A stretch of 64,000 nt of DNA from Belliella pelovolcani (lineage in GTDB: Bacteria; Bacteroidota; Bacteroidia; Cytophagales; Cyclobacteriaceae): contig NZ_FTOP01000011.1 of the NCBI RefSeq assembly GCF_900156785.1, positions 62,001 through 126,000 on the forward strand. The letters run 5' to 3'. The position numbers and the translations under genes are program-made. The notes below the pieces were generated by a model. It did not search any database and was not told where the DNA came from. It worked only from the letters and a program-made list of their open reading frames with translations. How positions within the stretch are numbered: position 1 is the first letter of the stretch; each line of letters begins with the position of its first letter. Of this stretch, positions 292 to 5,702 are shown piece by piece.

Positions 292-762
292 ATGAAAAAA
301 AGAACCCTTCAATCACCTTTGAACAGATTGGTATTTATTGCACTGTTCGGCTTATTAGCCATGGGAGCTTGTAAAAGCAAGAAAAAAGTAGTTGCTGAAC
401 CAGCACCTCCTGCTCCAGTAGAGAAAGTAGAACCAGCACCTGCTCCAGCACCTGCACAGCCTTCGGCAGAAGAAGTCGCTGTAGGGAAGTTGGAAAATTA
501 CTTTAGCAGCATCGCTAACTCTACCAATGTTCAAGCTGCCAATAGCACAATTCAAGAAGCCTTGAGCATGTTTTCAAATCAAGAAACTCCAGTATTGATT
601 GTGATCTATGAAGAGAGCGGTATCAAAGATTACGATGAGCCTACTACCATCGTTAAATATTTGAACTATCTCAAAGACACCAAGAAAAACCTAAACTTCA
701 TCAGCGATATCAGGTTAGATGCCAATGGTAGAGTATCTGAATTGGAACTTCGTCGCAAATAA
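292..762 (+). CDS. Small lipoprotein with Pro/Ala-rich linker, unknown function
   Basis: The protein has 156 residues. A basic N-terminus and hydrophobic stretch end in the lipobox LAMGAC, with the acylated Cys near residue 27, so it should be anchored in the envelope. A flexible Pro/Ala/Glu segment (about residues 36-58) follows, then a compact domain containing PVLIVIYEESGIKDYDEPTT. I do not recognise this domain. It is the first of four plus-strand genes (25 bases to the next) that all encode exported products, so it may be the membrane-anchored partner of the secreted proteins downstream. Function unknown. Confidence 0.88.
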   Translation: MKKRTLQSPLNRLVFIALFGLLAMGACKSKKKVVAEPAPPAPVEKVEPAPAPAPAQPSAEEVAVGKLENYFSSIANSTNVQAANSTIQEALSMFSNQETPVLIVIYEESGIKDYDEPTTIVKYLNYLKDTKKNLNFISDIRLDANGRVSELELRRK

Positions 763-787: not shown

Positions 788-1366
788 ATGAAAAAATACA
801 TTTCCCTATTCCTATTCATGTTTGTGGCTAGCGCGACCATCTCTATGGCGCAGTCAGATAACATCAGCCCAGCAAGAAAGCAAGCCATCGATTCTTTGGC
901 TTTGGAAAAAGTAAAGGACTTAAGTAAATATATCTCTATCATCGGTAGCAAAGAGACACAATTCTCTGAAGCTAACAGAGTAATGGATAGAGCAGAAGAA
1001 TTATTCGCTCCAGATGCTGAAATGGGAGTTTCTTCTTTGAACAGAAAAGAGATTGCTTACTACAAAGTGAGAAGATATTTCGAAAGATTAATGGCTTTGA
1101 ACTATGATAGAGTAAACATCACTTGGTATGATATTCACTATATTTCTGATTTGGAAAGACAGCCTGATGGTAGATATGTAGGTGTGATTACAGTGTATCA
1201 AAGATTTGAAGGTACTTCTCTTGAAAGTGGCTTGAACTACAGAGATACTACGAAGAAAGACATCACTATCTATGTAGAGAAAAAACAAACTCAAATTGCA
1301 GGTAGAACAATTGAGTTCTGGGATGTGATGTTGGGTGACATCAGAGTGACTGAAACTTCAGCATGA
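788..1366 (+). CDS. Secreted protein sharing a domain with the downstream LRR protein
   Basis: The product has 192 residues with a classical signal peptide ending at SMAQ (about residue 22) and no lipobox. The mature part carries an IGSKET motif, an NRKEIAYYKVRRYFERL segment and a beta-rich C-terminal half ending in FWDVMLGDIRVTE. By eye it resembles the N-terminal domain of the LRR protein two genes downstream, which has VGSKDT and NKDITAYLKDIEFFF at matching spacing. That suggests duplication of one exported domain. Its stop overlaps the next start (ATGA), indicating translational coupling. No known family recognised. Confidence 0.88.
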   Translation: MKKYISLFLFMFVASATISMAQSDNISPARKQAIDSLALEKVKDLSKYISIIGSKETQFSEANRVMDRAEELFAPDAEMGVSSLNRKEIAYYKVRRYFERLMALNYDRVNITWYDIHYISDLERQPDGRYVGVITVYQRFEGTSLESGLNYRDTTKKDITIYVEKKQTQIAGRTIEFWDVMLGDIRVTETSA

Positions 1367-2202
1367 GAAAATTAGCAGTAATAATCATTCTATTTATTAC
1401 ATCAATTGAGTTGGCACCGGGGCAAGGTTTATACAGCCCCGGTTCCCCTCAAGATGATGGTAGATTTGCCGCTTCAACCAAACAGGTGAATCAATTTTTT
1501 AGACGATTCAATGGAGAAGAGAGTGCTGATGGCACTAAACGTTATTATGAAGACGACTCCAATTACAGAAATAGAGAACTAAGAGGTAAATTTATTAGCA
1601 TCCTTTTTGATAATGAGACTTCAGGTATTCAAAATAATCTGAAGACTGAATTCATGAAAGATGTTCTTTCTGAGCCTTTACCTCAATATTTAGCCTTTCA
1701 TAGAGGTGAGTGGTTTGCGGAGGTTGCCACCACTTTTATTTATAAAGGAAAAAGAGAAAATGTCACCTTGTTCATGAAGCTTCAGCCTGAGGGTTTGGGC
1801 TATGAATGGGTAGTAGATAGAGTGAGTTTCGCTCCATTTAAGAATTTATTTAAAAAACCGCAAGGTGATCAGAAGTCTTTCCTGCATCCAATGAGTCATG
1901 AAATTGGATTTATGAATTTGAGAAAGGCTTTTCAGGATAATAAATTACCTGAAGCATACACACCTAAAGAGTATGAACCAGATTATTTGACCTTGTTTTT
2001 GTACGAAGTCAAGAATGGAAACTTGAAATTTGATAACATCTCAGATGTGAAATTTCATTTCTTTCAAATCAACGATTGGTATTTTGAACTGAATCAGTTC
2101 AATAGACCAGGATTTAATACAGGTTGGCTTATTAGCAATTTGATCAAGCTAAAGCCAGGGGATAAAGAAGTTGTTCAAAAATTCATTTATGACCAGAACT
2201 AG
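1363..2202 (+). CDS. Secreted protein of unknown function
   Basis: The product has 279 residues with a signal peptide ending near APGQG. The mature region has a conserved-looking block KQVNQFFRRFNGEE, then YRNRELRGKFISILFD, and aromatic-rich segments towards the C-terminus (FHFFQINDWYFELNQF). No enzymatic motif is visible. The ATG overlaps the previous stop by four bases, and the next gene starts inside its 3' end, so the three genes are probably translated as a coupled unit. I do not recognise the family. A periplasmic or surface role is inferred only from the signal peptide and context. Confidence 0.87.
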   Translation: MRKLAVIIILFITSIELAPGQGLYSPGSPQDDGRFAASTKQVNQFFRRFNGEESADGTKRYYEDDSNYRNRELRGKFISILFDNETSGIQNNLKTEFMKDVLSEPLPQYLAFHRGEWFAEVATTFIYKGKRENVTLFMKLQPEGLGYEWVVDRVSFAPFKNLFKKPQGDQKSFLHPMSHEIGFMNLRKAFQDNKLPEAYTPKEYEPDYLTLFLYEVKNGNLKFDNISDVKFHFFQINDWYFELNQFNRPGFNTGWLISNLIKLKPGDKEVVQKFIYDQN

Positions 2203-4645
2203 GTTAACATATCTTTTTTTTGCCATTTTTATTCTAAATGGCTTCGTTTCCAAAGCTCAACAAGCTTTAGGGGATTATACCAAGCAAGAAATCAAGGATC
2301 TTAGCCAAAAGGTTGAGGATCAAGTTGCTTTCTTGGAGTATTTTTTCAACACAGTAGGGAGTAAGGATACTCCTGCTAGAGATAAAGATGTGATTATAAG
2401 AGAGAGTTATAAGAAGATTTTTAGAGACCATTTGGTACAGGTTGAAGATGATTTGTTATTGGACAGGAAAGTCATCACCAACAAGGACATTACAGCATAT
2501 TTGAAAGATATTGAGTTCTTTTTCAAGGATGCATCATTTAAGTTTAAGGTAAGAGAGGTGAAACCATTTTTGAGAGATAATGGTGAATTATCTTTTGTGG
2601 TATCTCTCGACCGAACATTGACAGCCACAGGTTTAAATAAAGAAAAAATCACCAATACTAAGGAGCGATTCATTGAAGTCAATGTGGATAAAAAGTCCAA
2701 TGAATTGAAAATCGCGAGTATTTACACAACTAAATTGAGTAGGGATGAGGAGTTGTTGGAGTGGTGGAAGCGATTGTCATTTACTTGGGAAAACTACTTC
2801 CGTAAGAAAGTTGGTTTGACTGATTCAGATTCGGTTACAATTGAGCATTTGTACAAAATCAGCTCAATTGACTCCATCAACCTTTCTGGGAATCAGTTTG
2901 TCGTGGATCTAGAACCGATTGAGGCACTTAGAGAACTGAAATTTCTAGACATTAGCAATACACAAATCAAAGAGTTGAATCCTATCAGCAATGTCACCTT
3001 CTTATCTTATTTGAATATTGCTAACACTCCAACTAAGGATATCCAATTTATCAAATATTCTGATAGATTGACGCATCTGAATATTTCAAATACAGAGATT
3101 AGTGATATCAGTGAATTGGGAAATTTAAAAGGACTTTCAATTTTAAGAGCACAGAATACACCGATCACAAGTTTCGCAGTACTCAATTCATTTTCTGCCT
3201 TGAGAACGCTCGATTTGAAAGGTAGTGGGTTCAATAACTTGGAAAATATCCAAGAGCTTGATCAGCTTGTATCTCTCGACATCAGTTCCAATTATTTGAT
3301 CAATTTTGAATTGCTTTCAAGCTTAGTAGACCTTGAAAATATCAATCTTCAAGAGACGAATATTGTTGATTTGACGCCCTTGAAGGAATTAAAAAAGCTC
3401 AAAGTAGTCAATATCAATCAAACGGAAGTCTCTGATATCAATGCCCTTGATGCCATGCCCTCACTACAACGAATCTATGCAGATAGGACACGCATAGAAG
3501 AATGGGTTGCTGATGAGTTTGCTAGAAGAAACCGAAGGGTGTTGATGATTCATCATGTGGAGAATCTTCAGACTTGGTGGGATGGTTTGTCTCAACCTTG
3601 GAAAGAAGTTTTTATCAAGATCAATCCAAATCTCAATAGGGCTGAACCGAGTATAGAGGAATTGTCTACCCTAGTTGGTATGGATTCCTTGGATTTATCT
3701 GGTAGTGGAGTAATCAATCTCGGACCAGTATTAAAGTTCAAAAAAATCAATTATTTGTCATTTGATGATACAGAAGTTGTGGATTTGTCTCCCTTGGCAG
3801 ATATCAAAACTTTGGTAAGAATCACAGGTAGAAATGCAGATGTGAATACATTGCAGCCTTTGGTCAATCTTCCAAATGTAGAAGTACTTGATTTTAGAAA
3901 TAACCCAATCAATTCCATCAGTGCGCTGACTGCGGTCAAGTCCTTGAAATATCTCAATGTTGATAATTCTAATGTTGGGCACCAGGAAGTAGTTTTGCTA
4001 TTGGAGCAAAATCCTTCTTTAAAAATCATATTCAGGACGGAAGATCTGATTGAATGGTGGGATAGTATGGATGAAAATTGGCAATCTTTGATCAAAAAGT
4101 ATTTCAACGCCACAGAAAATCCTAACTTGGAAGAACTGCATATTTGGACTTCTAGCAAGTCATTGAGCATAGAAAAGGAATCTGTTTCAAATTTCAGGAA
4201 CCTGAAGGCTTTCATTAATCTGAGAAGTTTGAAGATCGTCGATGTACCTGCGATGGATTATTCAGCTTTGAATGAGATGCTTTTACTGGAATCTTTAACT
4301 ATCAATCAAGCACCTATTTCAAATCTCAATGATGTTGCTCAACTTATCAAACTCACCTATTTGGATCTTTCAAATACAGGTATTGAAGACTTGAGACCAT
4401 TGTCGTCACTTAGGAACCTGAGTACTTTATTGATTTCAGGTACAACAATCAAAAACCTGCGAGGTCTAGAGTCCCTTTATTCTTTAGAAGAATTAGATAT
4501 TGCCAGTACCAATGTGAGGTCATTGAAGCCAGTACAAGGGCTCACTAACCTGAATAAGTTAAGCTGCTTCAACACAAGGATAAACAAAAGAGGAGTAGAT
4601 AATTTTAGGAAATTAAACCCTGAGTGTGAAGTGAGATATTATTAA
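2189..4645 (+). CDS. Large exported leucine-rich-repeat protein with three Trp-Trp modules
   Basis: I start this at ATG 2189 (818 residues) because it gives a clean signal peptide ending at VSKAQQ; an in-frame TTG at 2171 is less likely. An N-terminal domain (about residues 25-185) resembles the 192-residue protein upstream. Three LRR blocks of roughly 22-residue units (LxxLDISNTxIxxLxPL type, as in internalins) follow. Each block is preceded by a similar module beginning with Trp-Trp (residues 192-193, 463-464 and 623-624) and a further Trp about 8-9 residues later. LRRs usually form curved protein-binding surfaces, so a secreted or surface-exposed binding role is plausible. No T9SS tail is seen. 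It overlaps the previous gene by 14 bases. Function unknown. Confidence 0.88.
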   Translation: MTRTRLTYLFFAIFILNGFVSKAQQALGDYTKQEIKDLSQKVEDQVAFLEYFFNTVGSKDTPARDKDVIIRESYKKIFRDHLVQVEDDLLLDRKVITNKDITAYLKDIEFFFKDASFKFKVREVKPFLRDNGELSFVVSLDRTLTATGLNKEKITNTKERFIEVNVDKKSNELKIASIYTTKLSRDEELLEWWKRLSFTWENYFRKKVGLTDSDSVTIEHLYKISSIDSINLSGNQFVVDLEPIEALRELKFLDISNTQIKELNPISNVTFLSYLNIANTPTKDIQFIKYSDRLTHLNISNTEISDISELGNLKGLSILRAQNTPITSFAVLNSFSALRTLDLKGSGFNNLENIQELDQLVSLDISSNYLINFELLSSLVDLENINLQETNIVDLTPLKELKKLKVVNINQTEVSDINALDAMPSLQRIYADRTRIEEWVADEFARRNRRVLMIHHVENLQTWWDGLSQPWKEVFIKINPNLNRAEPSIEELSTLVGMDSLDLSGSGVINLGPVLKFKKINYLSFDDTEVVDLSPLADIKTLVRITGRNADVNTLQPLVNLPNVEVLDFRNNPINSISALTAVKSLKYLNVDNSNVGHQEVVLLLEQNPSLKIIFRTEDLIEWWDSMDENWQSLIKKYFNATENPNLEELHIWTSSKSLSIEKESVSNFRNLKAFINLRSLKIVDVPAMDYSALNEMLLLESLTINQAPISNLNDVAQLIKLTYLDLSNTGIEDLRPLSSLRNLSTLLISGTTIKNLRGLESLYSLEELDIASTNVRSLKPVQGLTNLNKLSCFNTRINKRGVDNFRKLNPECEVRYY

Positions 4646-4649
4646 AAAT

Positions 4650-4688
4650 AAAAGGTAAAGGGGTTGATTTTCAATCCCTTTACCTTTT
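4650..4688. terminator. Bidirectional terminator between convergent genes
   Basis: A 13-bp perfect stem (AAAAGGTAAAGGG with CCCTTTACCTTTT) has A/T tracts on both sides. It closes the LRR operon and overlaps the last codons and stop of the convergent kinase-like gene, so it can serve both strands. Confidence 0.8.
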
Positions 4689-5702
4689 GATTACCTGTTC
4701 TAGACTTTCTCTAAGAATAGCACCCATATTTTTACAGCTTAAGAATTTTTCGTTTTTATAGTGTTTGGCGAGGTCTATTTTGAGATGCGCAATATTCTCA
4801 GGAGTAGAGATTTTATCCTGTTCCATGCTTCTCAGGATATCTTCAATTTCTTTTGAGGAAGATTTGAGTCTGTTGGCTATCAAGGCTCGCTCTTCCCGCT
4901 GATATTGTACCATAGACTCAGACGTGATATGCTTGATGCCCAACTGTATCAGAGCATTGTTTTCTTTGAAATACTGAGGGAGGTAAATGGACTTTTTACC
5001 TTCATAGGATTGCTGATCAAAGTCAATCGCTCTGATTCTATAATGTGTTTCTTCAAAATCAGGAGTGACGTCAATCACGAAGTTTGACGAGTGCATATCA
5101 CCCAGAAGCCTGACAAAACACCTTTCATTAAACTTTACAAACTCCTTGGCTAATCGGATAGGGTTGAGCAAACTGTCATGGATATGCTGTTTCATAAACA
5201 TCTCCCCAGGAATACCAGCGATATGCTCTTCTATAAGCGTATTTTCATGCACGAGATATGAAATTCTATTTGGCGAGAGGAGATGTTCTAACTCTAACCC
5301 ATATACCCTAGATGCATCTGCATTTTTGACATAGAAGTAATCGAAGTTATCATTGATTCTATTGACAATCCTTACCCTGTAAGGCTGTGTATTGCCGTAA
5401 ACGCACAAATCTATGCGGTCTACATAGAGGTGTTTCATGACAGAAATATCACCTTCAGCCTTAAGGATTGCATAGATTTTTTTGACATTGTAGTGGATTT
5501 CTTCTCGATCAGATTCATTGAAAAATACAGTTTCCCATAGCGTATCATTACCCTTGAAATCATACAATGGGATAGAACTGCTATACCGAAGTAGGTCCTT
5601 ATAATGAATAGGGAAGCCTGCCTCTCTACCGTATTTGACTAAATAGCTTCTGAGTTTTTCGCTGATTGGAAATACAAGCTTCTTTTTACTGATCAATGCC
5701 AT
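4680..5702 (-). CDS. Protein-kinase-like fold protein, unknown substrate
   Basis: The product has 340 residues without signal peptide or membrane segments. Residues 120-230 show the ordered marks of the kinase-like fold: a candidate ATP-binding Lys126 (YFYVK), an acidic helix (LELEH, about 136-140), a hinge-like LIEEHIAG, a catalytic loop GDMHSSN (Asp202, His204, Asn207) and a metal-binding IDFD (Asp227, Asp229). The Dx[H]xxN...DFD pattern is typical of lipopolysaccharide-core, choline/aminoglycoside or Fam20-like kinases rather than classical Ser/Thr kinases. I infer a cytoplasmic phosphotransferase of unknown substrate. The remainder matches nothing I know. It stands alone on this strand, 10 bases upstream of the DUF3817 gene's stop. 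Confidence 0.85.
   Translation of the reverse strand: MALISKKKLVFPISEKLRSYLVKYGREAGFPIHYKDLLRYSSSIPLYDFKGNDTLWETVFFNESDREEIHYNVKKIYAILKAEGDISVMKHLYVDRIDLCVYGNTQPYRVRIVNRINDNFDYFYVKNADASRVYGLELEHLLSPNRISYLVHENTLIEEHIAGIPGEMFMKQHIHDSLLNPIRLAKEFVKFNERCFVRLLGDMHSSNFVIDVTPDFEETHYRIRAIDFDQQSYEGKKSIYLPQYFKENNALIQLGIKHITSESMVQYQREERALIANRLKSSSKEIEDILRSMEQDKISTPENIAHLKIDLAKHYKNEKFLSCKNMGAILRESLEQVIKR

Follow-up and report, generated by a model that had tools for sequence, protein, structure and literature searches.

Relation to described systems

The NTF2-like superfamily is an alpha+beta cone in which helices pack on a curved sheet. In type IV secretion, the VirB8/TraM/TraH proteins, which have such a domain, are structural subunits of a machine in the envelope, and we propose a similar role for a four-gene operon (P0001–P0004, all in one direction) found in a 64,000-nucleotide stretch of the 4.1-Mb Belliella pelovolcani genome (contig NZ_FTOP01000011.1, positions 62,001–126,000), hereafter the window. 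VirB8 is bound to the inner membrane; the products of the operon, in contrast, are one lipoprotein plus three proteins whose N-termini resemble signal peptides. VirB8 did not appear among the 50 listed of the 932 structural (Foldseek) matches of P0002, and Pfam gave no match; only the fold is compatible, and we use VirB8 as an analogy, not as a family assignment. The predicted fold of P0002 is likewise similar to that of the NTF2-like superfamily at large, but scans of the protein with Pfam and NCBIfam gave no family at E up to 1.

A second described system is TssNQOPR, the membrane complex of Bacteroidota type VI secretion. Like the operon, it combines a lipoprotein with several periplasmic parts, and in nine genomes TssC is close to relatives of the operon (cassettes); in one genome such a cassette immediately adjoins TssG and TssN. 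It differs in that Pfam assigns none of the window proteins to a Tss family, and searches of the window's genome for TssC, TssN and TssR gave no match. The portion of the published account considered here gives TssP PKD-like domains and TssQ and TssO helical folds, with NTF2 not mentioned in that portion, and reports tssO, tssQ and tssR as absent or unidentifiable in 27%, 23% and 31% of systems, respectively (PMC10781749). Within the open-licence PMC literature, no paper combined NTF2-like, type VI secretion and Bacteroidota, none combined leucine-rich repeat, Algoriphagus, operon and lipoprotein, and none of the titles listed concerned this operon.

We put at about 0.5 the probability that the four proteins form a complex in the periplasm, anchored to the outer membrane and serving as a scaffold with an interchangeable repeat module. 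The evidence consists of a domain shared by three of the four proteins, its predicted fold, the conservation and co-inheritance of the gene set, the modules to which the domain is joined in other Cytophagales, and the closeness of relatives to type VI genes.

A domain shared by three of the four proteins

A preliminary description of this DNA had proposed that P0002, a protein of 192 residues, and the N-terminus of P0004, a leucine-rich repeat (LRR) protein of 818 residues, contain copies of a duplicated domain, which stands alone in the first and is fused to LRRs in the second. The two reading frames lie where it placed them (Table 1), and comparison of sequence profiles indicates that the two regions are homologous and the shared domain real. 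We fetched 40 regions, covering 41 of the 83 places matched by a profile of close P0002 sequences (A1), and built family profiles iteratively from their 2175 open reading frames (ORFs); the P0002-type profile (A3) had 35 rows and the P0004-type profile (A2) 21. With these widened profiles, which include divergent members, P0002 and the P0004 N-terminus aligned over 139 columns at an HHalign probability of 97.7% (E = 1.6e-12), against 0.4% for the best of 30 column shuffles and 0.6% for the reversed profile. P0001 and P0002 aligned over 79 columns at 96.6% (E = 5.7e-10; best of 30 shuffles 1.6%). By this sequence criterion the homology covers three proteins, in which the domain is free (D2), carried by a lipoprotein (D1) or joined to LRRs (D4). 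The duplication is wider than first described, the lipoprotein also carrying a truncated copy.

Searches with hidden Markov models (HMMs) connected the same families. Among the 2175 ORFs, the HMM of close P0004-domain orthologs matched P0002-type domains at two loci (L132, E = 2.8e-4; L135, E = 2.2e-3), and the first-round P0001 HMM, also of close orthologs, matched them at two others (L118, E = 3e-4; L117, E = 1e-3). Run against 11 whole genomes, A2 matched P0002-type proteins in three (E = 3.1e-6, 1.4e-4 and 3.5e-4). In the window's own genome, A3 gave one further match at E up to 0.001, which was the C-terminus of P0001 (E = 5.8e-4, positions 481–684). A candidate further P0002 relative in that genome, L002, was dropped, as its E-value was 0.199 and no family HMM did better than 0.17 there.

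The HMM–HMM comparison, which the preliminary description had suggested as a check, is thus significant once divergent relatives are added; with close orthologs only, the P0002–P0004 score was 1.2%. Comparisons of one wide with one strict profile gave 85.8% and 82.2%, and P0001 against P0002 reached 79.2% with close orthologs only. The pairing of the IGSKET and VGSKDT motifs was correct. The helices that follow had been paired six residues out of step; the profile alignment matches NRKEI to DRKVI, and NKDIT to YYKVR. We consider it highly improbable that the similarity reflects chance or the convergence of a short motif. The strict score of 1.2% would suit that explanation, as would plain BLASTP, in which P0002 and P0004 share a weak stretch over the signal peptide and IGSKET (E = 0.017 for a single comparison), too weak alone to serve as proof of homology. 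Against it stand the 97.7% profile probability with clean shuffles and the whole-genome profile matches, which fall on the expected proteins.

P0003 scored 0.7% or less against the other three families with both widened and ortholog-only profiles; with no HHalign support and no significant fold match, we rejected it as a fourth copy. HHalign scores against the four families were at most 6.6% for the OmpA-type proteins that occupy the P0003 place in some cassettes and for the N-terminal parts of 24 D2 fusion proteins. Searched against PDB chains, A3 found none at E up to 1 and A2 found one ATP synthase chain (E = 0.57). Pfam and NCBIfam scans of P0001–P0004 gave LRRs and nothing else above the cut-offs, and no model in either library matched the shared domain.

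Predicted folds

The best AlphaFold2 model of P0002, computed from 22 close sequences, had a mean confidence (pLDDT) of 82.2 and, after the signal helix, the element order H-H-E-E-H-E-E-E-E. A Foldseek search of the PDB returned 932 matches within E = 10, eight of them within E = 0.001. Among the 50 listed, which have probabilities of 0.97–1.00, are the CaMKII hub, NTF2, LinA, a bile-acid dehydratase, designed NTF2 proteins and SalBIII; going by their titles, we take all 50 to be NTF2-like. This one confident model thus predicts an NTF2-like fold for P0002. For the P0003 model (pLDDT 78.5), the best Foldseek match was a Mediator subunit (probability 0.66, E = 7.6e-3), and none fell within E = 0.001.

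Many of the listed matches are enzymes (e.g., SalBIII, LinA and bile-acid dehydratase), which raises the question of whether the NTF2-like copies form small-molecule or catalytic pockets of the SnoaL or ketosteroid-isomerase type and are not structural. We regard this as improbable, given that the wider family has few invariant columns, most of them aromatic (F50, Y74, Q115, F117 and D130 in A3 numbering), and that no fusion to a metabolic enzyme exceeded a Pfam cut-off among the domain proteins scanned.

Conservation and co-inheritance of the gene set

A contig scan with P0002 confirmed 131 relatives, of which we kept the best 80; figures for these 80 loci therefore describe close relatives. 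All four genes were present, in the same order and on one strand, in 80 of 80, although gene 4 was incomplete in four (L010, L030, L056 and L065). The preliminary description had spoken of a coupled four-gene operon and had proposed synteny as a check, and on both counts it holds: genes 2 and 3 share four bases in the window and in 70 of the 80 loci, and genes 3 and 4 share 14 bases in the window and in 47, the start codon in the remaining loci not being fixed by the alignment start. The closest named record among the best 80 of 131 is Belliella buryatensis (Cyclobacteriaceae), with an identical P0002 (100%). Genes flanking the operon in the nearest named record recur in 17–40 of the 80 loci (64 of the 80 full length).

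Identity to the window protein across the 80 loci was 84.4%–100% for P0002, 62.8%–100% for P0001, 59.6%–98.9% for P0003, and 47.7%–94.5% for P0004 when the cut L010 copy (44%) is left aside. P0004 varies least in its N-terminal domain, where mean identity over 78 sequences was 0.75, compared with 0.60, 0.43 and 0.54 for the three LRR blocks. The 84%–100% identity of P0002 implies strong selection. Conservation of this degree in a protein that has no family name points to an envelope function under strong selection, one for which the libraries searched have no entry.

Profile A1 found P0002 in 68 of the 194 genomes of the order (83 places), including 11 of the 16 of its own family and missing from five. 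Across the phylum, P0002 alone as query matched six of 296 genomes, and A3 matched nine, of which two are from another class and one is a weak match with a stop. The P0002-type domains outside the order (L164, E = 5.5e-14; L165, E = 9.1e-14) adjoin a 432-residue ORF and a 315/313-residue ORF.

The set also tends to be inherited together. In 31 genomes picked by their A1 result (the 11 of the own family, out of 68 positives, and the 20 listed of 126 negatives), P0003 occurred in 11 of 11 P0002-positive genomes and in none of the 20 negative ones. Another 11, more distant genomes with a P0002 ortholog had an adjoining lipoprotein-type domain in 10 cases, P0003 in seven and an LRR-type P0004 in six; counting unlinked cases, all 11 held P0003 and a D4 protein somewhere in the genome. 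Five D4 proteins were unlinked, and the two that we scanned both had LRRs. At one locus (L151:3571–3948), a further short protein with a P0002-like domain is encoded between the genes for the lipoprotein and the P0002 ortholog.

Modular fusions and a candidate periplasmic scaffold

Outside the close relatives, we compared 29 loci of other branches, several of them cut by contig ends; D4 was present in 21 and P0003 in 15 (E below 0.01). Above Pfam cut-offs, the D4 proteins carry tetratricopeptide repeats, Kre9/KNH immunoglobulin-like domains (L129, L207) or WG repeats (L144), and in two proteins D4 precedes an outer-membrane beta-barrel (L205, L206). The D4 proteins of L121, L127 and L130 had no family in the Pfam scan, an fn3 match in L117 fell just under its cut-off, and a protein with Sel1 repeats (L138) matched D4 weakly (E = 2e-3). 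In one protein a D2 domain stands behind a caspase domain (L143:7980–9557; Peptidase_C14, 26.2 bits, cut-off 21.4). The 9.5-Mb genome G464 gave ten A2 matches, nine D4-type proteins and one D2 protein. An OmpA or barrel gene was present in two related cassettes that we scanned (L121, L131). The OmpA-family protein of L121 (6688–8142) follows the D2 protein, in the place expected for P0003; genes of similar length take that place in other cassettes.

The position of D4 ahead of outer-membrane barrels would place the domain in the periplasm. A domain that is free, lipid-anchored or at the head of varied repeat and barrel modules, with carriers that are co-inherited, is most simply read as a periplasmic docking module. 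We thus infer the location, assembly and docking role of the complex; the order of D4 before barrels, together with the OmpA and barrel genes of the L121 and L131 cassettes, fits an envelope scaffold. P0001 would be the lipid anchor, its Pro/Ala-rich linker reaching into the periplasm and ending in the truncated NTF2-like copy. P0002 would contribute the free copy, the third copy (D4) would dock the LRR platform onto the complex, and P0003 would be an obligate partner. Most likely the scaffold is built by binding of the NTF2-like copies among themselves or to P0003, by analogy with the NTF2-like VirB8 of type IV secretion, and the repeat module on the D4 protein would decide the cargo.

The preliminary description had instead suggested a surface-recognition complex. 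On that reading, the LRR protein would be displayed on the cell surface to bind prey, host or polymer and be held there by P0001 and P0002. LRRs are common binding platforms, and among the large neighbors (eight proteins of more than 900 residues near a D2 or D4 gene, chosen by us) a type IX secretion system (T9SS) sorting domain exceeded its cut-off in four (L130, L145, L174, L210), fell under it in two (L117, L127) and was lacking in two (L137, L204). Yet Pfam found no such domain (Por_Secre_tail or CHU_C) at E up to 1 in P0004 or in any of the other three operon proteins, and the D4–barrel order in two relatives also speaks against display. In Bacteroidota lipoproteins, acidic residues after the lipobox mark surface export, and the residues directly after that of P0001 are KSKKK. 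We think the surface-recognition proposal unlikely; a periplasmic scaffold fits better.

Type VI secretion neighborhoods

A search for TssC (PF17541) was positive in 27 of the order's 194 genomes; all 16 genomes of the own family, including the window's, were negative. TssC-positive genomes have 22 D2 places, and 11 of these are no more than 25 kb from TssC, against 0.23 expected; the other 11 are not near it. Because the 11 near ones fall in nine genomes, four genera and two families, they are not independent. All nine genomes have TssN, and none has TssR over its cut-off (one weak match, in G468); six TssC-positive comparators have TssN in six and TssR in three, and two of the three without TssR (G298, G366) hold an LRR-type D2 elsewhere. 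The cassette of G190 (D4-D2-P0003) lies one gene from a ClpV-like ATPase, beyond which are genes for TssC, PAAR, a VgrG-like protein, TssF, TssG and TssN. The cassette of G332 (D2-D2-P0003-D4) has TssG and TssN directly after it, and the cluster also includes a TssO match. That TssO match and the missing TssR in three of six comparators weaken the idea that the cassette simply replaces the whole TssQOPR set.

Could the operon be left over from a type VI secretion system since lost, with a minor or different role today? Such a history would fit the relatives close to type VI genes, seen in four genera from two families, and the absence of TssC from all 16 genomes of the own family that were searched. 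The 84%–100% identity of P0002 across the best 80 loci, with the strong selection it implies, argues otherwise, as does the D2 tree (55 rows): the LRR type forms one group in 90% of bootstrap trees, with the T6-linked rows scattered outside that group and their label needing six changes, four of them forced. A relic is, in our estimate, quite improbable. On the scaffold proposal, the window copy seems to operate without a detectable type VI system, and its LRR head suggests a protein or glycan partner.

More tentatively, and at clearly less than even odds, the NTF2-like subunits and the P0003 family may make up an unrecognized Bacteroidota envelope module, which would be part of the outer-membrane/periplasmic complex in some Cytophagales type VI systems (those with TssN and undetectable TssR) and a free-standing, LRR-headed machine in Cyclobacteriaceae. 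If the cassette does belong to type VI secretion in relatives, this would bear on what substitutes for tssO, tssQ or tssR where they are absent or unidentifiable. Its presence both near type VI genes and in TssC-free genomes makes the set testable by deletion in either setting.

Several results weigh against the scaffold proposal. The ortholog-only P0002–P0004 score was low, though in the correct register, and for this reason the link rests on divergent members. Profile A2 matched no P0002-type protein in the other eight of 11 genomes, and in the window's genome it found P0004 only, without P0002, at E up to 10. P0001 and P0004 had no direct match (HHalign 0.9%). One of five P0002 models was confident, the other four having a pLDDT of 44.8–51.4; TM-scores on the P0002 query were 0.27–0.52 among the matches listed; and the P0001 and P0004 domains would be NTF2-like by homology to P0002 only. 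Finally, with no match in the window's genome to TssC (PF17541), nor to TssN or TssR (PF17643 or PF17555), the type VI link indicates what relatives may do, not what the window copy does.

Features of the locus

Table 1. The operon and its parts, in window coordinates
Feature	Position	Strand	Basis
P0001, 156-residue lipoprotein: lipobox MGAC (by eye), Pro/Ala-rich linker, C-terminal domain	292–762	+	ORF; 80/80 loci
D1, truncated copy of the shared domain in P0001	481–732	+	HHalign; own-genome profile search
P0002, 192 residues, exported, essentially a free copy of the domain	788–1366	+	ORF
D2, shared domain in P0002, predicted NTF2-like fold	896–1357	+	A3 match; AlphaFold2; Foldseek
P0003, 279 residues, exported, without detectable shared domain	1363–2202	+	ORF; HHalign; AlphaFold2; Foldseek
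P0004, 818-residue exported LRR protein (length from ATG)	2189–4645	+	ORF; LRR_4, E = 1.1e-38 (Pfam)
D4, shared domain at the P0004 N-terminus	2279–2701	+	A2 match; HHalign to P0002 family
LRR region of P0004, about three blocks (limits set by us)	2855–4642	+	Pfam; motif positions

The P0001 linker, rich in Pro, Ala and Glu, lies between lipobox and domain (positions 397–462) and could act as a tether across the periplasm. In P0004, a spacer of the form WW..L...W or WW..M...W precedes each LRR block (positions 2762–2788, 3575–3601 and 4055–4081; residues 192, 463 and 623), and the Pfam scan of the window protein gave it no name. A sigma-70 promoter scan was of no use, with 15 found against 15.3 expected. 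Between P0004 and a convergent ORF (4680–5702), we noted by eye an inverted repeat, absent from the scan output (4645–4690), which is perhaps a shared terminator.

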